Below, one piece after another: positions 6,279 to 52,018 of a DNA stretch of 54,668 nucleotides; the first letter of the stretch is position 1; each line of letters starts with the position of its first letter. Source of the DNA: a virus; IMG/VR virus record IMGVR_UViG_3300048592_000644, positions 1 through 54,668 of that record; one strand, given 5' to 3'. The position numbers and the translations under genes are program-made. Under the pieces are notes generated by a model, which saw only the letters and a program-made list of their open reading frames with translations, had not been told where the DNA came from and did no database searches.

Positions 6279-6347
6279 ATGAACAATCAAACGAAATACC
6301 CCTTTAGTTTTCTAAAAGGAGATGCCACCAATGCAGGAAACAAGTGA
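6279..6347 (+). CDS. Leader peptide, 22 residues, overlapping the next gene
   Basis: ATG at 6279 follows AGGAGATGC with a normal spacing. The frame encodes MNNQTKYPFSFLKGDATNAG plus two residues and stops at 6345-6347, inside the first codons of the next gene. The downstream gene's ribosome site (AAAAGGAGATGC) lies within this ORF, so its translation would change access to the next start. A leader peptide or translational coupler is inferred; it may be non-functional. Confidence 0.5.
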   Translation: MNNQTKYPFSFLKGDATNAGNK

Positions 6348-6885
6348 TTATATTTATTCTTTCGGGAAAACACTTCCTACTATCTCCCCCAAAGAACAAG
6401 AAGTTCTTGAGCAAGTCCGAAATATTAGCTTTGAAAGGGCGTTAAGTTCCTTCACAAATAAAGGGCATGACCCTCTCTCTTACACCCTAGTAACTCACGA
6501 AAAGGTTGTATGGCGCACTGAGATATTGATTGACTTTCGGGGGTTTAGTCGGCCGGTTGATTATCTCTACAAACCAACACCGCCCCCAACCAAAGAACGC
6601 CACAGTTTCACCTATCTTAGCCTTAGCATGTTTTTGGCTAACCCCTCAATCCTGCCGCTTAATGGGCAGTTAATCATGCCACCAGAGTATCTAAATCAAT
6701 CCCCTGTGCCAGAAGAAATAGGGATGCAATATTTTAATCTTCTCTCGCATGAACGGCCTAATCGCCCTAAAGACATAGTTCTGCATAGAAAAACTTACAG
6801 GGTTGGTATGATGCACTCTTGTTCCTTTTCGTTGGGCGAAGAGGTTTATTATTTATCTTGTTTTGCTTTTCAGAGGAGCGAGTAA
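6331..6885 (+). CDS. Hypothetical protein of the rightward operon
   Basis: A soluble protein of 184 residues without recognisable motifs. I place the start at 6331 because GGAGATGC ends six bases before it; the in-frame ATG at 6322 overlaps that ribosome site directly and is unlikely to be used. The stop overlaps the start of the helix-turn-helix gene (TAATG), so the two are coupled. It is one of only three full-size genes on the plus strand, together with a regulator-like protein, so a control or lysogeny-type function is possible but unproven. Confidence 0.6.
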   Translation: MQETSDYIYSFGKTLPTISPKEQEVLEQVRNISFERALSSFTNKGHDPLSYTLVTHEKVVWRTEILIDFRGFSRPVDYLYKPTPPPTKERHSFTYLSLSMFLANPSILPLNGQLIMPPEYLNQSPVPEEIGMQYFNLLSHERPNRPKDIVLHRKTYRVGMMHSCSFSLGEEVYYLSCFAFQRSE

Positions 6886-8055: not shown

Positions 8056-8084
8056 ATTATAGGCGGTTTGCGTTACTTTGTCAA
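8056..8084 (-). promoter_or_regulatory. Near-consensus early promoter P2
   Basis: Leftward TTGACA (8084-8079), a 17-base spacer and TATAAT (8061-8056): both boxes are perfect consensus. The spacer starts AAGTAACGCAAA, shared with P1 and P3. The sequence after the -10, TAGCTTTATAACTTAAC, is shared with P4 at 50099-50127. The -35 lies inside the last codons of the upstream gene. Confidence 0.9.
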
Positions 8085-8627: not shown

Positions 8628-9296
8628 TTAACCCCTTCTCCTGGCTTTAATAACTGGCTTGTCCCCGGCCGGTGCGTATCGCATGAGAGTAACCAGCATA
8701 GCCATAGTTAAGGGGTCATCTATATGCCCATTAAAGGTTAAATCAACTGAACCAGAAACCGTGACGTTAACCACGCCAGTACCATTGTCCTTTTGTGCTG
8801 ATTTACGCCTTTCTATGGTGTATTGACTTCCAACATCCTGACGGGGCATTTCTAGCCCCGGTATAACTTCCTCTAATCTTTCCATTAAGTCATTCCATCT
8901 TGCCCAATCCTCTCTTGCTTTTCGCGCACTTTCGTCATGCCGGGGGACGAAAAGCGGTAAAAAACGCCGTTGAATGTCTTTCGCTATAGCCCCGGCCGGT
9001 CGTGATTCGCTGACATGGATATTAACTGGTTCACCATATGAGCCTTGAAAAATCTGGTTACGGGGATAACTTGAGTTAATAGAGATAGACCACTTACCAC
9101 CCTCAAATACCAGCATAACCCAAATTTTACGCCCCGCCTTATCCACTATATAAACCATCTTGTTTTCTGTGCCGGGGGAGTTATCCCAACCGTTTCTAGG
9201 CACAAGCTCAACCGTCATATCTAAAGCGGTTGCCAACTCATACCAAAAGTCAGGGTACTCATGGGTTAAGGGTGTTTCTTGTTTTAGCCGTGACAT
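8628..9296 (-). CDS. Hypothetical protein, paralog A of a tandem pair
   Basis: A 222-residue protein clearly related to the next gene upstream (9284-9964). Both start with a YPDFW motif, keep a GRK.W..L.F..GKW strand pair, and share the identical block SESRPAGAIAKDIQRRFLP near residues 115-135, followed by a helical segment. The C-terminus has a beta-rich part ending near YAPAGDKP. The gene overlaps its paralog by 13 bases. A recent tandem duplication is inferred; function unknown. Confidence 0.65.
   Translation of the reverse strand: MSRLKQETPLTHEYPDFWYELATALDMTVELVPRNGWDNSPGTENKMVYIVDKAGRKIWVMLVFEGGKWSISINSSYPRNQIFQGSYGEPVNIHVSESRPAGAIAKDIQRRFLPLFVPRHDESARKAREDWARWNDLMERLEEVIPGLEMPRQDVGSQYTIERRKSAQKDNGTGVVNVTVSGSVDLTFNGHIDDPLTMAMLVTLMRYAPAGDKPVIKARRRG
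8961..9015. repeat. 55-bp direct repeat, copy A
   Basis: Matches 9632-9686 at 53 of 55 positions by hand alignment. It lies in the region encoding the identical SESRPAGAIAKDIQRRFLP block of the two paralogs. The strong DNA identity against weaker identity elsewhere suggests recent gene conversion or selection on this block. Confidence 0.85.
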
Positions 9297-9964
9297 GGGT
9301 GCACCTCTGCCCGGCTGTTGTTATCTTGCCCGGCCGGGGCATAACGAAAGAGGGTAGTCAACATAGCCATTGTCATAGGGTTGTCTAAATCCCCTCTAAA
9401 TTCTATGGTGATTGAGCCGTAAGCGTGAACAGCGGCCGATGCACTGTAACCTCTCTCTAAGTGGCCTGGCGGGGAATAGTGGCGGGTGAGGCGATAAGTT
9501 TTTGCCTGTTCGGTCGGCAAAGGAACGTTGGGTAAAAGTTCCTCCATTCTTTCCATCACTTCCCGCCATTGTGCAATATCTTTTTTTATTTGCACCACCC
9601 GGCCGTCATGCTCTTTCACAAACTCAGGTAGAAAACGCCGTTGAATATCTTTCGCTATGGCCCCGGCCGGTCGTGATTCGCTGACACAAATTGAGAGGGG
9701 CTTGCCACGATACCCCCCAAAGATGGGGTTTTGTGGGTAGGTGCTACTAACCTCAATTACCCATTTTCCCGTTTGAAAGATTAGATAAAGCCAAACCTTG
9801 CGCCCCTCCTTATCCACTAAATACGCACGGTCAAGCATCACTTCTGGGTTATCCGTACCTTCATATTTCTGCATCGTCTCAACCTTCATATTTAAGGCAG
9901 AGGCTATCTCATGCCAGAAATCAGGGTATTGGTGAATAGGGATGGGCTTTTCTTTAAGGGGCAT
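9284..9964 (-). CDS. Hypothetical protein, paralog B of a tandem pair
   Basis: A 226-residue paralog of 8628-9296 with the same order of parts: YPDFW near the N-terminus, GRKVWLYLIF strand, conserved SESRPAGAIAKDIQRRFLP block, helix with E.ME.LLP, and a diverged C-terminus. No catalytic motif is visible. The SRPAG...RRFLP block has two arginines and a lysine in a helix, which could contact nucleic acid or phosphate, but this is speculation. Confidence 0.65.
   Translation of the reverse strand: MPLKEKPIPIHQYPDFWHEIASALNMKVETMQKYEGTDNPEVMLDRAYLVDKEGRKVWLYLIFQTGKWVIEVSSTYPQNPIFGGYRGKPLSICVSESRPAGAIAKDIQRRFLPEFVKEHDGRVVQIKKDIAQWREVMERMEELLPNVPLPTEQAKTYRLTRHYSPPGHLERGYSASAAVHAYGSITIEFRGDLDNPMTMAMLTTLFRYAPAGQDNNSRAEVHPCHG
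9632..9686. repeat. 55-bp direct repeat, copy B
   Basis: Second copy of the repeat at 8961-9015 (53 of 55 identical), in the same place of the paralogous gene. Confidence 0.85.
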
Positions 9965-12224: not shown

Positions 12225-12493
12225 TATTCCTCTAATTTAGACAGCACCACAAAGGTTTTGCGGGTGCTTAAATTGCCGTTCAAAACTAAGTGGTGTCTGA
12301 TGCCCCCCACCTTGTAAATCGTTTCTAAAGCATCACCCTCAAAGGAGACAAAATCACCAATGCTGTAATGGCTGTTTGGGATAGATACCTCTGTTTCAGG
12401 GCGTTCCCCCCGGCTAAAAATAAACACTACTGAGGTTTGTTTGTTTTGGGCTGGTTTCCCCGTTAATACGGGTTCATCAAATGTCATGTCCAT
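12224..12493 (-). CDS. Small hypothetical protein upstream of thyA
   Basis: An 89-residue protein. I choose ATG at 12493 (MDMTFDEP) because GGAGGC lies seven bases upstream; the in-frame start at 12505 overlaps that site. It contains a beta-rich segment with [20 protein letters not shown], reminiscent of small SH3-like or phage YopX-like barrels, but no assignment is made. Its stop overlaps the thymidylate synthase start, and its start overlaps the end of the tandem HTH gene. Confidence 0.55.
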
Positions 12494-13016
12494 TATCGCC
12501 TCCATTTTGGCGTTTGTATTGGCGTAAATTAAGTCTAATTAGCCAATATGTAATTGTTGATAAAGGCAATTCTAGCTTTTCTGCTAGTTGTTGTTTTGTC
12601 ATGTTAGCTGTTTTGTACTGTTTCAATACCTCCATTTTTTCAGGGGTTAGACTACGGGTGTTACGGGCAGAACTATCTTGAACATTCAAGCCGAATTTAT
12701 TTATTGCCCATCTTAACCGATGCCAGTCTACCCCTATCTTTCGGCTAACATCGGCTCTAGTCAAACCATCATTTACCATTTGAACGGCTTGCGTGGCCTG
12801 TTCTAAGGTGACGGGAGGGAGCGTTTTTTGTCCGTTTCGGGCTTCATTCCAGGGGCGCACCCATAAACCCATTTCCTCAAAACGGCGGTAAAGGTTTTGG
12901 GGATAAACATTTAGCTCGTCGGCCAGTTTGGTAATTGATTCTCCGGCAACATGCCGGGGATGTATGGTAAGAATAACGTGGTCTGTAAGGCTTTTTTTGC
13001 CGTTTTTTCGCTTCAT
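12477..13016 (-). CDS. Triple tandem helix-turn-helix protein
   Basis: A 179-residue basic protein built of three HTH units of about 45-55 residues: (1) ESITKLADELNVYPQNLYRR, ending FEEMGL; (2) DGLTRADVSRKIGVDWHRL, ending INKFGL; (3) NMTKQQLAEKLELPLSTITY, ending LIRLNL. Each has the same ending, aromatic/hydrophobic-x-x-x-x-Gly/Asn-Leu, as in the upstream 503-residue gene. Start and stop of the two genes overlap as ATGA, so they are coupled and probably work together. The frame contains the palindrome at 12677-12690 (encoding LNVQ). Sequence-specific DNA binding is inferred. Confidence 0.75.
   Translation of the reverse strand: MKRKNGKKSLTDHVILTIHPRHVAGESITKLADELNVYPQNLYRRFEEMGLWVRPWNEARNGQKTLPPVTLEQATQAVQMVNDGLTRADVSRKIGVDWHRLRWAINKFGLNVQDSSARNTRSLTPEKMEVLKQYKTANMTKQQLAEKLELPLSTITYWLIRLNLRQYKRQNGGDNGHDI
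12677..12690. repeat. Dispersed palindrome CTTGAACATTCAAG, copy 2
   Basis: Perfect family member inside the triple HTH gene. In frame it encodes LNVQ, like nearly all intragenic copies. Confidence 0.7.
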
Positions 13017-14524
13017 TTCTGCACCAGTGAAAAGCCGGAAACTAACATTTTACGCACTTCAGCTAGTTCTAATTTGTATTTCTTTGCCAAACTCTCCACA
13101 CTGGCCCCAGACTGCCGCTCATGGGCTAAGACGGCCGGGGTTGCCTGTGGGGTTTGTTTGGGTGGAGTAGCCTTCTTTGGTTGCCGTTTTTGTTTTTGTT
13201 GTGCCTTGCGCTCTTTAATTTGCCCGGCCGTTGGCACTTCATTAAGGGGAGGTAAATTAAATTTAGTGAATTGCTTAACTACCTCAGTCCAACTAATTTT
13301 GAGCATGGCACAAACATCTTTGCGGCTGGCCCCGGCCTTGCGTTTTTCGTAAGCCATCACAATCTCTGCCTCACTAAAGTCTTGCCGTTGGAATGGTTTA
13401 GGACGGGGTTTGTTGATAGGCGTTAACCCCAAACGAACAAAACTTTTTTTGAGGGTATCCCACAACACATTGAGGTTATTACACACCTCGTCCCTATCTA
13501 AGCCATCGGTTAATTGCTTATGGGCGGTAATTATTTGGTGGTCACTGAGTAACGCTTTCGCGCCCGGCCGGTTCTTTTTAATCGTTCCCCTGCGCTCCTC
13601 ATAAATTTTTTTGAGGGTGTTGTAATTCAGATTTAACCGCTTTGCTATGTTTACAAAAGATACTCTTTTTTCTAGCAATTCCTTAACTTTATCAAGGGTT
13701 TCATCGGTGACAATAACCCGCCGCACTCTTTGGCGAGTGAGCTTGCGAACAGGTAACTTGACCCCACGCCGTTTTAATATCGCCCCTAGTGACTTTTTGT
13801 GTATACCGTACTTCTCACCAATTTGGGCTAATGTTAAACCCTCCCCATAATGCCCTAGAATCTCCTCTGTTGGCACATGGTTCAAGTTATGTGCCTCTCT
13901 GACAGGATTCCAGCCCAACGCTTCAAACACCTTTTTTAGCCGCTTATGAGTGGTGCTGTATTTCTTGCTGACTTGCTCCCACGTTGATTCCCCTTGTAGC
14001 TCCTCATAAATCTTTTTGGCTAACTCAGGGGCTATCTTTCTATTAACGCTATAAGGGGATGCGTCACATATGGCTTTGACGGTGTAGAAAGACATCTTGT
14101 GTTTCTTAGCCAACAAACATATAGCCACCCCGCTCATATATTCAGACATAATTTTTTCTTTTACTTCCTGTGGGATTTGGTCGGTGTATCCCCTGGGTAC
14201 GCTACGGGGTAAACCATACTGAATAAACCGCCGCCGCAAAACAGAGGACGTGACATTTAGCTCCTGGGCGACAACCGCCAAAACAGCCCCATTGGAGTAT
14301 TTGGCATGGGCATCCCTTACTTCCTGTTCGGTTAAATCTTGCTCCGGCCGGGCGCGTTTTGGCCCTCTTTTGCGGGGTGGTAACTTTAGACCCATTACCC
14401 CAAAGCGGCGGTAGAAATACGTTTCAGAGACGTTGTATTCAGCCGCGATTTGGTAAACCAATTCCCCGGCCTTTGCCCGTTCATAAACTTTTACTATTTC
14501 TTCATTTGAAATTATGCTTGCCAT
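13013..14524 (-). CDS. Nine-unit tandem helix-turn-helix protein
   Basis: A 503-residue basic protein made almost wholly of HTH units. I count nine at roughly 50-55-residue spacing, with cores such as VYQIAAEYNVSETYFYRR, VLAVVAQELNVTSSVLRRR, LAQIGEKYGIHKKSLGAIL and RDEVCNNLNVLWDTLKKS, most closing with a G-L/G-W/G-V turn and a basic linker (PPRKRGPKRARP, LPVRKLTRQRVRR). The last unit is degenerate. The start at 14524 follows GAGGAGATGT; the longer start at 14539 would place the ribosome site inside the ORF. Bead-like repetition suggests reading of a long DNA site or coating of DNA. I know of no named family with this architecture. Confidence 0.8.
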   Translation of the reverse strand: MASIISNEEIVKVYERAKAGELVYQIAAEYNVSETYFYRRFGVMGLKLPPRKRGPKRARPEQDLTEQEVRDAHAKYSNGAVLAVVAQELNVTSSVLRRRFIQYGLPRSVPRGYTDQIPQEVKEKIMSEYMSGVAICLLAKKHKMSFYTVKAICDASPYSVNRKIAPELAKKIYEELQGESTWEQVSKKYSTTHKRLKKVFEALGWNPVREAHNLNHVPTEEILGHYGEGLTLAQIGEKYGIHKKSLGAILKRRGVKLPVRKLTRQRVRRVIVTDETLDKVKELLEKRVSFVNIAKRLNLNYNTLKKIYEERRGTIKKNRPGAKALLSDHQIITAHKQLTDGLDRDEVCNNLNVLWDTLKKSFVRLGLTPINKPRPKPFQRQDFSEAEIVMAYEKRKAGASRKDVCAMLKISWTEVVKQFTKFNLPPLNEVPTAGQIKERKAQQKQKRQPKKATPPKQTPQATPAVLAHERQSGASVESLAKKYKLELAEVRKMLVSGFSLVQK

Positions 14525-14548
14525 ACATCTCCTCAACAAATCATGTAA

Positions 14549-32326: not shown

Positions 32327-33121
32327 TTATCCCTCTGGCAAGATGACCAATTCACCTAAAAGGGTAAGCACCCCTTCATTAGTGAATGATTGCCACACAA
32401 TTAGTTGCTTACCGGCCGGAACAGTCAATGTTTCCCCATCACCCAGGCTATTTTTAACCATAGGGTAATCGGTGAACTGAACAGCTATTTGGTCAATAGC
32501 ATCTTGAACATTCAAGGCTGATAGGCCGCTAGTGGATGGGTCATAGCTTACTTGTTCGGCCGTGCCAGAAAATTCAAAGTCATCAATTAACTCTTTTAGT
32601 TCGTCAATAGCATCTTGGACATTCTCAGCCTCTAGCTCAGAATCCGTGTTGTCGTAAGTAATACCGGCCGCCGTTGTAATGACGGGTGGGAGGGCGTTAA
32701 TATCTTCTACAATCTCGTCAATAGCATCTTGGACATTCTCAGCATCTAACTCGGAATCCGTGTTGTCGTAAGTAATGTCAACGGCCGCCCCGCTTACACT
32801 GATAGCGTCAATCTCTGCCTTTAGAGCCTCTATAGCCTCTTGTACATTGCTGGCCCCTAAAGAGGTATCTGTGTCATCATAAGCTACCTCGTCGGCATCT
32901 TGTGGTTCGGCGGCGGCCTCAGCCACCCCTAACACCTCCAAAATAGCCGTTGGAATAGTTGTGGCGGACAGTGCGGGGCTAAAATCGTAAGCCCACATAA
33001 AGGTTCTAATTTCCCCTAATTGCACCTTGTAGTTATCGGTTTCAGTCTGAGAGAAAAAAAGCCGGGATGTATTTAGGTCGGCAAAAACTAGCTCGTCAAA
33101 GTCAGTAGGTTTTAAGCCCAT
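32327..33121 (-). CDS. Tail fibre-like protein with four YD-x-x-N-V-Q-D-A-I repeats
   Basis: A 264-residue protein. Residues about 75-230 carry four copies of a motif common in phage fibre shafts: VAYDDTDTSLGASNVQEAIE, ITYDNTDSELDAENVQDAID, ITYDNTDSELEAENVQDAID, VSYDPSTSGLSALNVQDAID, each followed by a helix. The two central copies are almost identical at DNA level (repeats 32601-32662 and 32715-32776). A C-terminal beta segment follows. It is probably a fibre shaft or neck with the YadA-like genes as tips. Confidence 0.7.
   Translation of the reverse strand: MGLKPTDFDELVFADLNTSRLFFSQTETDNYKVQLGEIRTFMWAYDFSPALSATTIPTAILEVLGVAEAAAEPQDADEVAYDDTDTSLGASNVQEAIEALKAEIDAISVSGAAVDITYDNTDSELDAENVQDAIDEIVEDINALPPVITTAAGITYDNTDSELEAENVQDAIDELKELIDDFEFSGTAEQVSYDPSTSGLSALNVQDAIDQIAVQFTDYPMVKNSLGDGETLTVPAGKQLIVWQSFTNEGVLTLLGELVILPEG
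32503..32516. repeat. Dispersed palindrome CTTGAACATTCAAG, copy 7
   Basis: Perfect family member in the fourth NVQDAI repeat of the fibre gene, encoding LNVQ. The corresponding site of the other three repeats is not palindromic. Confidence 0.7.
32601..32662. repeat. 62-bp direct repeat, copy A, in fibre gene
   Basis: Matches 32715-32776 at 59 of 62 positions; it encodes one YDNTDSEL...AENVQDAIDE unit. Copy-number change by slippage or recombination would alter shaft length. Confidence 0.85.
32715..32776. repeat. 62-bp direct repeat, copy B, in fibre gene
   Basis: Partner of the repeat at 32601-32662 (59 of 62 identical). Confidence 0.85.
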
Positions 33122-37983: not shown

Positions 37984-40473
37984 TTAGGCGGTGACTTGTA
38001 CCCAACTGCCTTTTTGTGGCAATGGGCTAACCCGGCCGTTGTGTTCGCTAACATAGTAGTGCTTGGTATCCGTTGGGATAACATTGCTACCGCTAACGAT
38101 GTAATCTTGGTGCGGCCCGTCTAACAACATCGGCCGGAATACCCGGTGGGCAACCAATTCACGATTAACCACTAAGAGAGCCGGGAAAGAAGTGCCTAAT
38201 TTGGGGAACAGGTTGGTTTTGTAAATGGGCAAGCCTTTAATGCTACCCGCATAACCAGCCCCGTTCAGTGTGACCATACCGGGAGGCATAGGGTCATTGA
38301 ACCAGTTACCCAACACATCTGCCACAGAGTAAGAACACACAATGGCAGTGGCTTGATAGTTGCGCTCGTCAACCTTAACCCGCGCTCCACCAATGGCCCG
38401 TACTAAATCTTCTACGTCATCGGTGCTTGCAGACCATACCCCACCACGATTGCCGATAATGCTTTGAACGGCAGATAGGGCATGGTAGAAAATGGTTTCG
38501 TCAATCGTTTCCCGAATCCGAGAGATTAAGGAAAGGATGGAACGGGCGGTCGTGTCGTAGTTAATGGTCGAGATGGCATAAGCCTGAGCCTCGGCCGTAA
38601 CTTTGGTGGTTAAGCGCATGGCTTCAGTGGTGAGGGTCACAAAGTTTGTGAGGTTCTTACCAGAGCGAATGGCGTTGCCTTCACCGTTCCGTACCCGGTC
38701 ATACACATAATCAATTTCTAAGGCCAAAGGTAAAGCCCAAACATTGGCTGAACCATCTGGTTCCTCAGAGAGAATCATAATTTGCCCCAGGTCATGGTTG
38801 ATAATGTAATCATCTTGATAAACCAACGTGGTTGGCCCGGCCGTGTCCACTACGACAACAGAATCAATAACTACCGCTTTGTTGTCCAAGTTAACCCAGA
38901 CATCTTCGTCCGTCACCGCTACCGCTTCATTGGTCACAGTCACATAGCGGAGGGCATCGTCTTCGTAGGTTTCGTAGTAAATACGGGTGTCTGGGGTATC
39001 AATAACCCCAAAATCAAACACATTGGCCGCCACTAAGAGCGGGAAGGCTTGAGAGATAACAGCCCGCATGTAGCTGTAAGGGATGTTGAGGTCGGAGGTA
39101 GTGGATTCAGCATAGGCTTGAGCCTCTTTCTCCAAAGCCGCTTTATAAGTCTTGTCGTAATGAGCAAGGTATTGAGCGGTAAACACCTCAGCACGGTTTT
39201 TTGGCTTGCGGGGGTCAAAATGATTTTCAAGGTGAAGCGGGTTTTTCCGTTGGACAAAACTTTCTTCAAAAGCGTAAGAGGCCCGTGCAAACGCAGGTTG
39301 GCCGGTTTCGCTTTCAAAGGCAGTGCCGGAGTAGTTGACCCCTAACCCCCCCAAGTTTTGAGTAGCCATAGTAGCGGCGACTTTAGAGTACATAGAAACG
39401 TACTTCTTAATCACTTCGTTGGCTTCTTCAACGGTTTTGGGGTTTTCCGCTTTAATAGCGGCTGTCATTTGCTCATGCAATTCTTTGGCAAAGCGGGGTT
39501 TGGCTGTTTCGGATTCGATGTACTCACGGACTTGCCGGGTTTGGCTTTCTTGGCGAAGCTGTTCTAATTCGCGCATCCGTTGCTCAACGATAACGGTTAC
39601 ATCATCGTGGCTGTCGGCCCCTAACGCCTGAACCAACCCTTTTTGCCGTGCGGCTAAAGCCTCGGCAATGCGTTTTTGGTCGGCTTCTTTTTTCTCTTGT
39701 TCTTCTTTAATCTCTTGAAGAACTTCGGACTTTAATGACTTGCGCCGTTCCTCAGAGATTTGTTCAGCTTCACCGATAATGGCTTGATAAACAAGAGGGT
39801 AATCATTTTTCAACTGGTCTAAATTTTGTACGGCCGCTAAATCCTTGAGAGTAGGATTAGCCGGATTTGGAGGGGTAGGTACGGGCATTGGTTTGTTCTC
39901 CTGTTGCTGTTCAATAGCTTGGAAATTCTCTAACATGGCAATATTGGTAAAAGAAGCGTTGCTTACTAGGTCGAAGTTCATCAACTCTAGTTCCTCAACC
40001 TGCTCTATTGGTTCACCGTCCATGCTAATCTGCCGCCCCCACCCAGACCCAGATAAAGAGCCGGACGGGTACACTTTTGACTTCATAAGCATTAAGACGG
40101 ATTCACCAACCAAAGGGGTAGGAATAAGTGTTCCTACTAAGTGAACGGCACTGTGGCCGGGGAACTCTACGCTTTCCCCATACTCAAAGCGATTCCACTT
40201 AACAACGGTTTGCTTAAAATCCCGCTTAGAGGGGTGTTCAACCTCTCCCGTAAACTGCCCTGCTATCTCATTTGACCCATAGATATTTGACGGGTTGGCT
40301 GATAACTTGCGAAGGGCATTTTCTACCGCCTGTTGGGTGTAAATCCGGCGGTTGCGGTTAATTACGCCTACTACAATTGCATCTTTGATGCGAACAGTAG
40401 GCAAACCGTTCTCCTCTTTCAGAGAAAATTGGGATGGTTCAATGCTCTCTACTAATTTTTTTAGTTCGGACAT
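37984..40473 (-). CDS. Prohead protease-scaffold-major capsid fusion protein
   Basis: A single 829-residue protein carrying three normally separate functions. Residues 1-185: T4 gp21/S80-type prohead protease with His80 in GEVEHP, Ser139 or Ser141 in YPSGSLSGSGWG, and NFDLVSNASF. Residues about 190-345: Pro-rich hinge and long Glu/Lys/Gln coiled coil, a typical scaffold. Residues about 345-829: HK97-fold capsid protein, with an inserted beta domain (about 520-590, DDYIINHDLGQIMIL) and the end KHYYVSEHNGRVSPLPQKG. Assembly would place protease and scaffold inside the shell, followed by self-cleavage. The gene follows its own promoter and leader terminator. Confidence 0.85.
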   Translation of the reverse strand: MSELKKLVESIEPSQFSLKEENGLPTVRIKDAIVVGVINRNRRIYTQQAVENALRKLSANPSNIYGSNEIAGQFTGEVEHPSKRDFKQTVVKWNRFEYGESVEFPGHSAVHLVGTLIPTPLVGESVLMLMKSKVYPSGSLSGSGWGRQISMDGEPIEQVEELELMNFDLVSNASFTNIAMLENFQAIEQQQENKPMPVPTPPNPANPTLKDLAAVQNLDQLKNDYPLVYQAIIGEAEQISEERRKSLKSEVLQEIKEEQEKKEADQKRIAEALAARQKGLVQALGADSHDDVTVIVEQRMRELEQLRQESQTRQVREYIESETAKPRFAKELHEQMTAAIKAENPKTVEEANEVIKKYVSMYSKVAATMATQNLGGLGVNYSGTAFESETGQPAFARASYAFEESFVQRKNPLHLENHFDPRKPKNRAEVFTAQYLAHYDKTYKAALEKEAQAYAESTTSDLNIPYSYMRAVISQAFPLLVAANVFDFGVIDTPDTRIYYETYEDDALRYVTVTNEAVAVTDEDVWVNLDNKAVVIDSVVVVDTAGPTTLVYQDDYIINHDLGQIMILSEEPDGSANVWALPLALEIDYVYDRVRNGEGNAIRSGKNLTNFVTLTTEAMRLTTKVTAEAQAYAISTINYDTTARSILSLISRIRETIDETIFYHALSAVQSIIGNRGGVWSASTDDVEDLVRAIGGARVKVDERNYQATAIVCSYSVADVLGNWFNDPMPPGMVTLNGAGYAGSIKGLPIYKTNLFPKLGTSFPALLVVNRELVAHRVFRPMLLDGPHQDYIVSGSNVIPTDTKHYYVSEHNGRVSPLPQKGSWVQVTA

Positions 40474-40654: not shown

Positions 40655-40698
40655 AAAAAAGCGGTCTGCAAGCGGAAAAATTTCCACTCGCAGACCGC
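40655..40698 (-). terminator. Intrinsic terminator in the capsid leader (attenuator candidate)
   Basis: GCGGTCTGC (40661-40669) pairs with GCAGACCGC (40690-40698), with an inner GGAAA/TTTCC stem; a T6 run follows on the minus strand. It lies between a near-consensus promoter (40731-40759) and the capsid ORFs. Flanking GCAATAG (40643-40649) and CTATTGC (40716-40722) could pair around it. Confidence 0.85.
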
Positions 40699-40726
40699 AG
40701 TATGTTACGGGGGTCTATTGCGATGC

Positions 40727-40740
40727 CTTGAATATACAAG
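40727..40740. repeat. Dispersed palindrome variant CTTGAATATACAAG on a promoter -10
   Basis: One mismatch from the family consensus. Its centre is the TATATT -10 box of the leftward promoter at 40731-40759, exactly where a repressor or regulator would act. Confidence 0.7.
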
Positions 40741-40759
40741 ATTCGCTGTAATATGTCAA
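40731..40759 (-). promoter_or_regulatory. Internal promoter for the capsid genes with operator-like palindrome
   Basis: Leftward TTGACA (40759-40754), a 17-base spacer and TATATT (40736-40731), two bp after the upstream gene ends. The -10 forms the centre of a dispersed palindrome variant. Transcripts would start near 40724 and meet the hairpin at 40655-40698 after about 25-65 bases. Confidence 0.85.
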
Positions 40760-46132: not shown

Positions 46133-47791
46133 TCAAACATTATCAAAACCAGTTTGTATGTCTTTTTTAAGGCTTATAATTGCCGTCTCAGGGGCAAGAG
46201 AAGCCATTAAACAGTAGTTTTCGGCATGGGCAAAGTGGTCGGCTTCCGTTTCAATATAAACGCTCCGGCCGTTCTTTATTTGCCTCAGTGGTGCTTTTAG
46301 TTGTGAATAATAGCGGGGAATGGAATCAGCATTGCCCGGCAAAGCGTTCTCTCTGGCTCTAAATCTGGAATAGGTGAGGTCGAGGGTACGGGTGCGGTCG
46401 GCGACAACTATCATATCTTCCTCATTCCACTCAACTGAAGCCACACCCCTCAACCCATCGGGGCTGGTGTGGTAACGGCAAAGCCAAACCCGCCCCCGGC
46501 CGTATTGCGCCTGTATCCCCCGCACCATATTTGTTTCCGGGCCTATGTCGAATACTGCCCGTTTAACCTTGTAGACGCTCATAAGGAGCGGAATATCAGA
46601 AGGTTGGGCTTCTGTGGCACACAGTAAAGGTCGTTTGCCTTGCTCATTTAATGGGGCGCGAATAATGACATGAAGCACCTTGCCCACGTCCACTCCCATT
46701 AAATTACCGCCTCCGGCCGGGCCGGGGAGATAACCCATTTTACAGGCGTTCAAATCCTCATCGGTTAGACGGCCACCTCTCGGAGAGTAGGGTAATCCTA
46801 AATCCTGATTCCAACATTCACGGATTTTAGATTCATCAAACGATTGTAAGGCTTGCACCATCTCTTTAAGGGGGCTACGGGGGTAGCAAAGTTTGGTTGG
46901 GTGGAATCCCACTAAGTCATTGCTTCTACTTGGATACTTAGCCACCCACCGGCCGGGGGATTTGCGGTCTAAAATCTTGTGGCACTTTTTACAACAGCAA
47001 AGATACTGGTTAATCTTTTGCCCATACCACGCTATGGGCTGTTGGTCGTGATTCCAGTCAATGACCACATTGTTAATGTCTATCTCTTGCCATGTGCCAC
47101 AATGAGGGCATTTTAAGCACCATACTCTTTGGTCTGACTGCATCCATTCAGCATGGATACCAATAGAGTTAAACGTAGGGGTTGAGAGGCTTAGTTCCTC
47201 TGCTATAAGAGAGTGACCTAACCGTTTTGAAACTAAATCCTTTACCCTGGGGTTCATCACATCTACTTCATCCCTTACCCCTATATCGGCATCAATAGAG
47301 CGTAACTGAGAGGCGTTTCCCTCAGTATCAATCTTCCCCCCTCGAAAGGTTATGAAGTTGTCTCTCACCCGCTTCATGGTCACTCTGTCGGCCCCGCCCT
47401 CCCCGGCATTGACCACTAAAGAAGCGAGATAGGGACTGCTTTTTAAGGCTGGCCCAAAGCGTTTTTGTGAAAAATCGCTTACATCCCCATCGGTTGGCAT
47501 AACATAGAATACATCAGCCTTTCTTACGTCACATGACCACAAGGCACGATTAACCGCATATTCGCTAAGGCCAAGTTGCCCCCCTTTCATTAAGACAATC
47601 TTTTTGGCCTCACACTCATAAATGCCCCTTAAAAACTGGTGATGCTCCAGGTCAAAGGCAAGGTTAGGTTTAATGAGCGGCCGGTGCTTGATTGTCCATT
47701 CCAGCAAACCCATATATTTGCGGCCGGTCTGAATGTTTACCCGCCGCAGTTTTTCATCTAGTGCTGTAATGAGTTCGTGAGTTTGGTTCAT
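46133..47791 (-). CDS. Terminase large subunit, GpA type
   Basis: A 552-residue packaging ATPase-nuclease. The deviant Walker A KGGQLGLSEY (about 69-78), the DADIGVRDEVD region (Walker B-like), a zinc-ribbon-like pair CLKCPHCG and CCCKKC (about 230-275), and the nuclease segment LMGVDVGKVLHV fit the lambda gpA (Terminase_GpA) family. These cut and translocate concatemeric DNA, usually at cos sites, though headful relatives exist. The ribosome site is poor, and the palindrome at 47796-47809 occupies its place, so translation or transcription may be regulated there. Confidence 0.9.
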   Translation of the reverse strand: MNQTHELITALDEKLRRVNIQTGRKYMGLLEWTIKHRPLIKPNLAFDLEHHQFLRGIYECEAKKIVLMKGGQLGLSEYAVNRALWSCDVRKADVFYVMPTDGDVSDFSQKRFGPALKSSPYLASLVVNAGEGGADRVTMKRVRDNFITFRGGKIDTEGNASQLRSIDADIGVRDEVDVMNPRVKDLVSKRLGHSLIAEELSLSTPTFNSIGIHAEWMQSDQRVWCLKCPHCGTWQEIDINNVVIDWNHDQQPIAWYGQKINQYLCCCKKCHKILDRKSPGRWVAKYPSRSNDLVGFHPTKLCYPRSPLKEMVQALQSFDESKIRECWNQDLGLPYSPRGGRLTDEDLNACKMGYLPGPAGGGNLMGVDVGKVLHVIIRAPLNEQGKRPLLCATEAQPSDIPLLMSVYKVKRAVFDIGPETNMVRGIQAQYGRGRVWLCRYHTSPDGLRGVASVEWNEEDMIVVADRTRTLDLTYSRFRARENALPGNADSIPRYYSQLKAPLRQIKNGRSVYIETEADHFAHAENYCLMASLAPETAIISLKKDIQTGFDNV

Positions 47792-47811: not shown

Positions 47812-48495
47812 TTATAACTCGAAGTCTACCACATCGGCCGTGGCCTCATTTTCTTGCGGTTGTCTGTTTGGTTCTAGTCGGCCGGTATCTACAAATTCAG
47901 CATCTATGATGGGGTTATTCCGCTCGGATTGACCACTGAACAATACCTCTACTAAATCAATATCATCTTCATCTGGGGTTGTGGCCTGGGCAGTAATAAG
48001 CGCAAGGTTTTTAATGTGTACCTGTAGTGCTTCATCGCTCATACCCGCCAAGCGGTGATTAATGTCAATTTGTCCGCTCACTAATTGATTAACTTGCCCA
48101 TCTAAGGTGGCTTGTATTCTAGTAATACTTTTCCAACGTTCCGGCGCACGGTTGTACAAAAGTACCTCCATTGCTCTTGTGTCGCCTGACATGCCCTTGA
48201 GATAAAGAGAATCTTCTATATCTTCTACCCGGCTATCTTTGGCCTTGTCAGCTAAAGCGGCAAAAATTGGGTTAGCCAATCGCTCTTTACGGTAGGTTGA
48301 GGTATCTATACCGCACAAAGCGCAAGCGGCATCTACCGTCTTGCAGTCATTAAGCAACTCAAGAAACATGGCTTGCATTTTAGGCGTGAATCTTTTTTTG
48401 CGCCCGGCCCCTTTCGGGTTTTTTGGTTTTTCTTTTTTCTCGCTTTTTTCACTTTGGGGGTCGGCCGGGGGAGTAGCTTTCTTTTTTCTAGGCAT
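47812..48495 (-). CDS. Terminase small subunit (probable)
   Basis: A 227-residue protein directly upstream of the large terminase. A Lys-rich N-terminus precedes an HTH-like region (about 38-75, LELLNDCKTVDAACALCGID followed by TSTYRKERLANP), typical of terminase small subunits that bind packaging sites. A helical oligomerisation region and an acidic tail follow. The call rests on position and this HTH. Confidence 0.75.
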   Translation of the reverse strand: MPRKKKATPPADPQSEKSEKKEKPKNPKGAGRKKRFTPKMQAMFLELLNDCKTVDAACALCGIDTSTYRKERLANPIFAALADKAKDSRVEDIEDSLYLKGMSGDTRAMEVLLYNRAPERWKSITRIQATLDGQVNQLVSGQIDINHRLAGMSDEALQVHIKNLALITAQATTPDEDDIDLVEVLFSGQSERNNPIIDAEFVDTGRLEPNRQPQENEATADVVDFEL

Positions 48496-48498
48496 GGG

Positions 48499-49203
48499 TT
48501 AAATCTCGTTTTCCTCAAAAGACACACTTTCGCCATGTTCTAGCCAGTCAGACAAACTTTCTTCCATGGCCATCTGTAACATTCTCACATTGCTCTTGAG
48601 GGTTTTCACATTAGCATCTATTTTAACTACGCTTACTGGTTGCCCGTCTATCACAAAACAGACTACGGCCGCCTCCTCATTTTTGGCTATTACCTCAGCT
48701 ACTTTCTTGCTCACTCTTTGGGCTATTTTTAGCACATCGGCTTTTAGCTTCATGCTTTCCCGCCCTTGCTCCACCCGTTGCTCTTGCATCATTTTCATTA
48801 TTTCTACGGTGGGATGCCGGAAAATATCTAGTTTGGCTAGGGTTAACTCTTGAGCGTCAATGATTTGTTTTAGCTTTTTCTTACTGGTTTTGCCATGAAC
48901 GGTGTTGAGGTTGTTTACTAAATTAAACTTCTCCTCTTTAGACAAGTTTCCGGCAAAAACATTGCAAACAATACTGTCATGGCCTAAATTCCCCCATTCA
49001 GTTATGCGGTGTCGGCCCCCAAGCACCTCATACCCATCCTCTTTCTTGAGTAAAGAGGGTAAGGTAACAGGGAGGCCAATACCCTCTAATTCAGATGATA
49101 GGCGTTGCCTTTGGCTATCATCCATCTCATTTGCGCTGAACTCACTCCAAGAAATGTTTTCTAATGGCACTTCATAAGTGCCAACATACTGTAACTTTGA
49201 CAT
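48499..49203 (-). CDS. ParB/sulfiredoxin-like protein, first gene of the late operon
   Basis: A 234-residue protein. Residues about 8-90 match the ParB N-terminal domain (VPLENISW, then ELEGIGLPVTLPSLL, VLGGRHRITEWGNLG with GGRHR at 62-66). The rest is helical with KTSKKKLKQI and a C-terminal coiled coil, not a standard ParB HTH. Such phage proteins may bind DNA, hydrolyse CTP or act as nucleases; no ParA is present. The start has AGGGG upstream. It could be the binder of the dispersed palindromes, but nothing in sequence proves it. Confidence 0.75.
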   Translation of the reverse strand: MSKLQYVGTYEVPLENISWSEFSANEMDDSQRQRLSSELEGIGLPVTLPSLLKKEDGYEVLGGRHRITEWGNLGHDSIVCNVFAGNLSKEEKFNLVNNLNTVHGKTSKKKLKQIIDAQELTLAKLDIFRHPTVEIMKMMQEQRVEQGRESMKLKADVLKIAQRVSKKVAEVIAKNEEAAVVCFVIDGQPVSVVKIDANVKTLKSNVRMLQMAMEESLSDWLEHGESVSFEENEI

Positions 49204-49235: not shown

Positions 49236-49265
49236 ATTTTAATATATTTGTCATCTTAACAACAA
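49236..49265 (-). promoter_or_regulatory. Weak promoter candidate for the late operon
   Basis: Leftward TTGTTG (49265-49260), an 18-base spacer and TAAAAT (49241-49236), about 35 bp upstream of the ParB-like start. The -35 is poor and overlaps the terminator's T run, so an activator or antiterminator may be needed. Confidence 0.4.
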
Positions 49266-49294
49266 AAAAAACACCTCGTCAGAGGTGTTTTTTT
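49264..49294. terminator. Bidirectional terminator at the early/late boundary
   Basis: Stem ACACCTC/GAGGTGT with loop GTCA, extended by A and T runs on both sides. It separates early-type transcription from the late operon. Confidence 0.9.
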
Positions 49295-49311
49295 CTATTA
49301 ACTTAACTTCA

Positions 49312-49405
49312 CCCTTAGTCATCGGAGATGCCTGGTCATGGGGCTTTTGCATAACCCGAACTTTTGGAGGTTCTTTAATGGGTTAAGTGACCTAACGACT
49401 AAAGG
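49312..49405 (-). ncRNA. Candidate structured RNA downstream of early unit
   Basis: On the minus strand 94 bases fold on paper into nested stems: outer 49397-49405 with 49312-49320 (nine pairs; the plus-strand C/A mismatch becomes a U-G wobble on the minus strand, favouring that strand); 49388-49392 with 49334-49338; 49380-49384 with 49353-49357; 49370-49373 with 49358-49361 (loop containing CUCC); and a small hairpin 49320-49330. It contains GCAUCUCC, the exact complement of the GGAGATGC ribosome-site class. It lies 11 bases after an early gene and 18 before the terminator. Alternative: a plus-strand 23-codon ORF at 49338-49409. Confidence 0.45.
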
Positions 49406-49415
49406 ATAAATCTGA

Positions 49416-49613
49416 TTATACTTCGCTTTCGGGGTTGGTCAACATGGTTTTGTTAGCGGCCGCAATTCTTTCTAAAACCGTTTGGCAATCCTGCATGACC
49501 TCACTTAGAATCTCGCTAAAGTACCGCTCATTACTTTCCCGCCTCTCCGCCATACCCGATACGATATTTTGTAATATCCAGGGAACGCCCTCTCGGTCTG
49601 CCCATTCCAGCAA
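49416..49613 (-). CDS. Small protein in frame with an upstream amber stop (second half)
   Basis: About 65 residues from TTG at 49613 (LLEWADREGVPWILQNIVSG, then a helix to the C-terminus). There is no ribosome site upstream. The frame continues directly from the 49623-49751 ORF across a single TAG (49623-49625) via F-G-A. Either the two form one gene read through the TAG, or a nonsense mutation split it, or the second half starts on its own. It is followed by the candidate structured RNA. Confidence 0.5.
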   Translation of the reverse strand: MLEWADREGVPWILQNIVSGMAERRESNERYFSEILSEVMQDCQTVLERIAAANKTMLTNPESEV

Positions 49614-49622
49614 AGCCCCAAA

Positions 49623-49751
49623 CTATACCTTTCGCTCCCCATGTACGCAGGTGCGGTGCTGGTGATGGTTAAAGTAACTATGTCGAAACAAAGCCTCTAA
49701 GATGTTTCTTTGGGTGTCATTCAACACCCCGTCCCATAATTTCTTGTTCAT
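49623..49751 (-). CDS. Small protein ending in an amber codon (first half)
   Basis: 42 residues from ATG 49751 (MNKKLWDGVLNDTQRNILEA and onward), ending at TAG 49625-49623; the frame reopens at once into the 49416-49613 ORF. It begins 46 bp after the 49798-50061 gene with no clear ribosome site. No family is recognised. A product of about 110 residues would result from read-through. Confidence 0.45.
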   Translation of the reverse strand: MNKKLWDGVLNDTQRNILEALFRHSYFNHHQHRTCVHGERKV

Positions 49752-49797
49752 ATTAAGAGGGAGTGCCGGGTTTACCCGCCCGGCCGGGCTAATAAAA

Positions 49798-50061
49798 CTA
49801 CTCAGTGGCAGAAAGAGGGTTAAAGTCACGGTAAGACGAAAGGGGCAGTGCCTTTTCATCGTAATAATCAACTGTTTTCGCAAAGTATTTGTCGTGGACT
49901 TTAACATAGCAATCTGTTTGTGTACCCCACTGGAACTCCATACAGAAAAACCGTTGGGTAAAGCCGTATTCGTCGGAGTTCCAAGAGAGCGGGGGAAGTT
50001 GCCCTAAAGCATCAAACCATTGCTCCTCTGTAATTTCCTTAAAACCGTTTAGTTCGTTCAT
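49798..50061 (-). CDS. Hypothetical early protein behind promoter P4
   Basis: An 87-residue protein, acidic and aromatic-rich (ITEEQWFDALGQLPPLSWNS, then FFCMEFQWGTQTDCYVKVHD). AAAGGAGATGCT precedes the start. It is the first gene after promoter P4 (50099-50127). No family is recognised. Early, short, acidic proteins of this kind often act on the host, which is only an analogy. Confidence 0.65.
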   Translation of the reverse strand: MNELNGFKEITEEQWFDALGQLPPLSWNSDEYGFTQRFFCMEFQWGTQTDCYVKVHDKYFAKTVDYYDEKALPLSSYRDFNPLSATE

Positions 50062-50098: not shown

Positions 50099-50127
50099 AT
50101 TGTAACAAAAACGTAACGCAAAAGCAA
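50099..50127 (-). promoter_or_regulatory. Early promoter P4 with inverted spacer element
   Basis: Leftward TTGCTT (50127-50122), 17-base spacer and TACAAT (50104-50099). The spacer holds TTGCGTTACG, the inverted form of the element in P1-P3. Downstream, TAGCTTTATAACTTAAC is identical to P2. Confidence 0.75.
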
Positions 50128-51748: not shown

Positions 51749-52018
51749 CTAATCTAAGTCCAAATAAGCACCCCAATCAGCAAGGGTCTTTGTGTTGGTT
51801 GGTTCAACTACGCCATCCTCACCTTCTACGGGTGTTAACTCTGAGACCACCCAATCTTTGCGGCTTTCTGTTTTGCCGTAAAAGGCGCAAACTTGAGCGA
51901 AGGTCATGTATTGGTGTTGGCGGAGTGATGGTTCAACGTTAAATGTTCCTTCCTCAGTCGGAACATCTTTAATAACTTTGTTAATTTCATATCGGTAGTC
52001 ATTCATTGTGTTGGTCAT
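51749..52018 (-). CDS. Small acidic early protein, first gene behind P3
   Basis: An 89-residue protein with AGGAGATGCAAC upstream. It contains YRYEINKVIKDVPTEEGTFN and a C-terminal acidic segment. It is the first gene after promoter P3, so it is likely strongly and early expressed. No family is recognised. Confidence 0.65.
   Translation of the reverse strand: MTNTMNDYRYEINKVIKDVPTEEGTFNVEPSLRQHQYMTFAQVCAFYGKTESRKDWVVSELTPVEGEDGVVEPTNTKTLADWGAYLDLD

Follow-up and report, generated by a model that had tools for sequence, protein, structure and literature searches.

Promoter, leader and terminator units placed before late genes are well known in lambdoid phages. In phage HK022, the put RNAs form two hairpins and the folded leader RNA itself makes the polymerase resistant to terminators. 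The PR'-6S-tR' unit of lambda, with its equivalents in phages 21 and 82, comprises a strong promoter, a short stable RNA and an intrinsic terminator ahead of the late operon, and Q brings about read-through of that terminator. Lambda-type late leaders carry a -10-like hexamer in the initial transcribed region, where the Q factors load (PMC6606751), and lambda 6S has been found as an Hfq-dependent RNA (PMC12197685). In the Caulobacter GTA cluster, controlled by GafZ/GafY, and in Pseudomonas, with AlpA, a Q-like factor is loaded at the promoter and enables the polymerase to pass a terminator (PMC11150451, PMC9371919). Small phage RNAs may also act on other transcripts. For example, one promoter of the Gifsy-1 prophage yields both a terminated small RNA, IsrK, and a read-through mRNA, the short form being trans-acting (PMC4825925), and the C4 antisense RNA of P1 and P7 is a folded molecule whose segment b' covers a ribosome site while a' binds upstream (PMC5320573).

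The window analysed here, the 54,668 bases of IMG/VR record IMGVR_UViG_3300048592_000644, is a phage genome. Its minus strand carries a unit composed as in lambda, with a strong sigma-70 promoter, a short predicted RNA and an intrinsic terminator before the late operon (Table 1), the labels 'early' and 'late' being inferred throughout from gene content. The promoter, at 49442-49415, is new relative to the original prediction, which had proposed a small structured RNA from this strand. It is one of four minus-strand promoters matching the consensus at 11 or more of 12 positions in the whole window (8084, 40759, 49442 and 52085); the plus strand has none, and the shuffle control of the scan gave 0-1 sites per strand at this threshold. 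Its -10 shares bases with the stop codon of the ORF upstream, and the predicted start lies three bases above the outer helix of the folded element. The hexamer TATCCT lies 12 nt below the -10 of this promoter, the spacing expected of such an element, matches the consensus at 4 of 6 positions and is a candidate for the -10-like pause element of a lambda-type initial transcribed region. The GC core of the terminator helix has an ensemble probability of 1, and the complete predicted transcript folds with a z-score of -3.7. Bracketed by a near-consensus promoter and a strong terminator, the element is very likely a real, free-standing transcription unit. The case for a discrete minus-strand small RNA is stronger than when it was proposed, since both a near-consensus promoter and a terminator belong to it. 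The suggestion that it derives from a 3' UTR agrees with its position between the stop codon 49416-49418 and the terminator, but with its own promoter an origin by 3'-UTR processing is unneeded.

Table 1. Positions of the unit, its internal features and neighbouring genes in the window
Feature	Position	Strand	Basis or remark
sigma-70-type promoter TTGACC-16-TATAAT	49415..49442	-	consensus scan, 11/12 positions, -10 perfect
transcript start region with -10-like hexamer TATCCT, possible sigma-dependent pause element	49398..49408	-	sequence; function inferred
predicted small RNA / terminated leader, ~145 nt	49261..49408	-	inferred from promoter and terminator
structured RNA domain, nested helices, 9-pair closing helix	49312..49405	-	folding
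CCUCC, last four bases CUCC in hairpin loop, generic anti-Shine-Dalgarno	49366..49370	-	predicted fold
box 1 GCAUCUCC, mostly unpaired, complementary to early ribosome site GGAGATGC	49324..49331	-	fold and motif counts
box 2 GUGAAGUUAAGUUA, complement of early 5'-leader box TAACTTAA(C), single-stranded linker	49299..49312	-	predicted fold and sequence
intrinsic terminator, 13 perfect pairs, 4-base loop, then Ts	49265..49294	-	works on paper in both directions
rival 23-codon ORF MGLLHNPNFWRFFNGLSDLTTKG	49338..49409	+	codon score 0.025 vs gene mean 0.167
first gene past terminator, 234 aa, function unassigned	48499..49203	-	weak PHROG matches
terminase small subunit	47812..48495	-	PHROG 309, 4044, 4102
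terminase large subunit	46133..47791	-	many phage terminases matched in tblastn
second promoter / leader / terminator unit	40661..40759	-	TTGACA-17-TATATT and 17-pair perfect hairpin, z -9.7

The minus-strand element is predicted to fold by a closing outer helix of nine pairs (CCUUUAGUC/GACUAAGGG), the inner half of which has an ensemble probability of about 1, and by the inner helices GGUCA/UGACC, UAACCC/GGGUUA and GAAC/GUUC. A nested fold with a U-G wobble on the minus strand only had been foreseen; indeed, the outer mismatch of the plus strand is a U-G pair of this nine-pair helix on the minus strand. The CUCC said to be exposed in a loop is also present, and is mostly unpaired in the predicted fold. 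Folding against dinucleotide-shuffled controls, the check suggested for the original prediction, gave a divided answer. The minus strand is more stable than its shuffles, with a z-score of -2.6 (p 0.013) for the exact bounds 49312-49405 and -2.2 for the bounds 49308-49409, the contrast between strands being -2.0 to -2.6 (minus) against only -0.5 to -0.9 (plus). However, this stability is ordinary for the genome: among 581 arbitrary minus-strand windows of 94 nt, 10.5% lie at or below a z-score of -2.0 and 6.4% at -2.5, so that the fold by itself is no evidence of function.

Downstream of the unit, all on the minus strand, lie the 234-aa gene, the genes of the small and large terminase subunits and head genes. 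Only two minus-strand promoters of the window with at least 10/12 positions reach a terminator within 220 nt, those at 49442 and 40759, and the second unit is located directly before the capsid-protease gene (37984-40473), whose homologue in Virus Rctr41k is the 'capsid protein and protease'. At the protein level, viral and genome collections yielded no close relative near enough for covariation, the best identities in the alignment-based scans being 34% (portal) and 48% (terminase), and DNA searches of a phage collection gave no match. The layout was surveyed among 99 loci related via portal or terminase at 27-48% identity, with 7 duplicates excluded, a unit being defined as a promoter of at least 10/12, a leader of 15-220 nt and a strong terminator. 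Within 4.5 kb upstream of terminase, 210 kb of sequence hold seven units (L002, L011, L020, L023, L050, L052 and L053, the terminase anchors of L011 and L020 being estimated from the capsid gene) against 0.69 expected (Poisson p 8e-6), and the 1.84 Mb of other or opposite-strand sequence hold six. The density is thus 3.3 per 100 kb upstream of terminase versus 0.3-0.4 elsewhere or on the opposite strand, about nine times higher. Counted by locus, a unit occurs in 7 of the 53 with at least 1.5 kb of upstream sequence. L002 is the named record Rctr41k, whose unit lies 1.8 kb upstream of its terminase, and in L027 a unit stands directly before the capsid-protease gene, in the same place as the second unit of the window.

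The leaders of these relatives vary in length, sequence and fold, and inspection revealed neither a common sequence nor the antisense boxes described below. The conserved feature, as judged from these loci, is the layout of a late leader apparently under terminator read-through control, not the leader sequence. No promoter of at least 9/12 was found within 160 nt after the terminator in L002, L011, L020, L023, L050 and L027, nor at 40759, which implies that the operons concerned need read-through or upstream transcription. In the window, the packaging operon may have its own promoter below the terminator, because two weak candidates (9/12) precede the first gene there and a strong promoter follows the terminator of L053.

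On balance, we lean towards the view that the main role of the unit is that of a terminated leader heading the packaging operon and controlled by terminator read-through. RNA polymerase would start at about 49408, transcribe the folded leader and, by default, halt at the terminator, with release of a small, stable RNA some 145 nt long. Under changed conditions, a phage antitermination factor or the leader itself would allow read-through into the terminase genes and beyond, and read-through at 49294-49265 would thus time packaging-gene expression; the released RNA may additionally pair with early-gene leaders. Promoter, leader, terminator and gene order can be read directly from the DNA, as can the recurrence of the layout; production of the RNA, regulated bypass of the terminator and the identity of the factor are inferred. 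By likeness of layout, the unit most likely works like PR'-6S-tR' of lambda. It differs from the lambda unit in belonging to an unrelated phage, in preceding terminase genes, with a second unit before the capsid gene, and in that no Q homologue was recognised among the window genes scanned. More generally, no antitermination protein family was recognised among the scanned gene products of the window, nor was a factor of the GafZ/GafY or AlpA kind identified there. Q proteins diverge widely. As with the put RNAs, the folded window leader could itself confer terminator resistance; it has one nested domain, and put has two hairpins. The layout recurs in divergent environmental phages, before packaging and sometimes capsid genes, and this suggests that among such phages late genes are more widely controlled by terminator read-through.

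An alternative main function, compatible with the leader role, is that of a trans-acting antisense small RNA. GCAUCUCC would pair with GGAGATGC, and UUAAGUUA with TAACTTAA, which several early mRNAs have at their 5' end, and the pairing would block translation of non-structural genes after the late promoter fires. As a main function this is possible but doubtful. GGAGATGC occurs 11 times in the window against 0.8 expected, and ten of these copies are true ribosome sites, every one reading AGGAGATGC with A before GG. The claim that the element carries the complement of an early ribosome-site class holds in so far as the eight-base complement of GGAGATGC is present, but the class is AGGAGATGC and the copy here reads CGGAGATGC. 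Among the 21 minus-strand genes with a GGAG site, GGAGATGC is used by 8 of the 10 non-structural genes and by none of the 11 structural ones (Fisher p 2e-4), so that its ATGC extension marks the former group although it is dispensable for ribosome binding. GCAUCUCC has a mean unpaired probability of 0.63 in the predicted RNA and an opening cost of 1.4 kcal/mol. A second complementary box, UUAAGUUA (49299-49306), lies in the unpaired linker just outside the element as first delimited and is absent from the original prediction; boxes 1 and 2 are both largely unpaired in the predicted fold. The window has only six copies of TAACTTAA: three belong to early promoters, one lies at 49299 and the remaining two are elsewhere on the plus strand. 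The left flank reaches p 0.007 by dinucleotide shuffle. The three early promoters have TATAACTTAA in common, just below the -10, at the expected mRNA 5' end. With a CCA bulge, box 2 is also complementary to CTTCAC in the leader of the early gene that starts at 50061. Of all plus-strand sequence, 49281-49350 best matches the leaders of this gene and of the one starting at 52018.

The predicted duplexes point in the same direction. The RNA pairs with the ten class sites at a mean of -25.8 kcal/mol, compared with -17.8 for the sites of other genes and -15.6 +/- 1.4 for shuffles, and none of 150 shuffles and 120 genome windows is as good. However, this selectivity comes mostly from the 8-base motif: the one match on which the original prediction was built dominates the whole-RNA controls, which are for this reason partly post hoc, and with GGAGATGC held fixed the similarity of the remainder to the ten leaders has a p of only 0.048. 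Moreover, TAACTTAA could be a DNA promoter element instead of an RNA target, and the leaders of the relatives, in which inspection revealed neither a common sequence nor the boxes, speak against this reading. The proposed silencing of early mRNAs is therefore selective on paper in its pairing with the early site class, but the conserved context indicates a different main role. An antisense role is plausible as a second function, carried mainly by the two short boxes, and the sequence alone does not distinguish it from the possibility that the plus strand is a former early leader.

Known RNAs offer partial parallels for such a function. The two complementary segments of the window RNA, 49324-49331 and 49299-49312, resemble the arrangement in C4. 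Unlike C4, which is processed by RNase P, the window RNA has its own promoter and terminator and would act in trans on many leaders; it has no C4 match in Rfam even at a relaxed threshold and by this test is not a C4 RNA. IsrK shares with the arrangement proposed here a single promoter for a terminated RNA and a read-through mRNA, but IsrK activates the translation of its own read-through form and is linked to an antitermination gene. It is unlikely, though conceivable, that one RNA fills both roles, as terminated leader of the packaging operon and as trans repressor of an early regulon, with read-through producing the late mRNA. That regulon would consist, with the same reserve, of the genes tagged with AGGAGATGC and, in part, with the 5'-end box TAACTTAA. 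If the released RNA does silence tagged early genes, firing of the late promoter alone would switch off early translation, and the ribosome-site extension common to early genes would gain a purpose.

Control of the packaging operon by terminator read-through must also be weighed against readings that give the locus another nature. It is improbable that the plus strand holds an early-type gene or its remnant, made up of a copy of the early leader (TAACTTAAC ... GGAGATGC ... ATG) and the 23-codon ORF, the minus-strand complementarity being a by-product. The plus strand is leader-like, its ATG stands at a usable distance from GGAGATGC, and further plus-strand starts with a GGAGATGC site exist at 6282 and 6332. 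Yet the base before GGAG is C here and A in all ten true sites, and the codon score is low, albeit over just 23 codons. The scan also bore out the earlier remark that this ORF has no visible plus promoter: the sole upstream candidate (9/12) precedes the terminator, which is active in the plus direction and lies immediately upstream. Slightly less credible still is a leader that acts in cis as an attenuator or in the way of a riboswitch, an alternative fold of the element opening the terminator for gene 48499-49203. The order of promoter, folded domain, terminator and gene is that of a riboswitch, and five bases of the terminator's 5' arm recur in the loop ACCUC, which could pair with the 3' arm, but chance alone would produce such a match in roughly one case in ten, the core helix of the terminator is fully formed in the ensemble, and the leaders of relatives are unlike in length and fold. 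Rfam, at gathering and relaxed thresholds, returned terminator-like or chance matches only and no riboswitch or leader family, the relaxed matches being at chance level and nearly all resting on the terminator. Least credible of all is a fold and motif that arose by chance in an ordinary spacer between genes, which would accord with a stability in the top 6-10% of arbitrary windows, but not with a promoter and terminator that bracket the element exactly or with the recurrence of the layout in relatives.

Several other candidates were discarded. A tRNA/tmRNA search was negative, the leader of L052, tRNA-like by eye, is not a tRNA according to ARAGORN, and an attC-like integron site was dropped by inspection, its core sites being in the wrong order. 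A search of viral contigs for the early-leader pattern and the two boxes gave no match, and one for the helix-arm pattern gave four (L101-L104), all of them unrelated tandem repeats of the TAATGACC type. A ParB-like identity for the first genes of the window unit and of L050, an idea formed by eye, was unsupported when checked. In L050 (2609-2640), the promoter spacer of the unit holds CAGGCATCTCCG, twelve bases identical to the box 1 region of the window; chance should yield a match of this length at some place in the loci, but its position is curious.

Further features of the window deserve mention. The early promoters at 8084, ~50105 and 52085 (minus) have a -10-like TATAAC 12 nt below the -10, inside TATAACTTAA, with the spacing of a sigma-dependent pause element. 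The motif GTAAC[GA]CAAA lies between -35 and -10 in two early promoters, and occurs inverted close by near 50105. The ORF upstream of the unit (49416-49907, minus) is split by an in-frame TAG (49623-49625) into 94 and 68 codons of one frame; since TAG serves as a normal stop codon in the rest of the window (19 of 71 genes), this suggests mutation, sequencing error or read-through, not recoding. At 6282-6350 (plus), a 22-codon ORF with AGGAGATGC overlaps the ribosome site that serves the following plus-strand ATG, in the manner of a leader peptide. Two adjacent proteins encoded at 12477-14539 (minus), with genes at 12477-13016 and 13013-14539 and one of them of 508 aa, each have several helix-turn-helix matches and are candidate phage regulators. 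Finally, near-identical direct repeats of about 60 bases (95%) are found at 8956-9015 and 9627-9686, and at 32601-32662 and 32715-32776.
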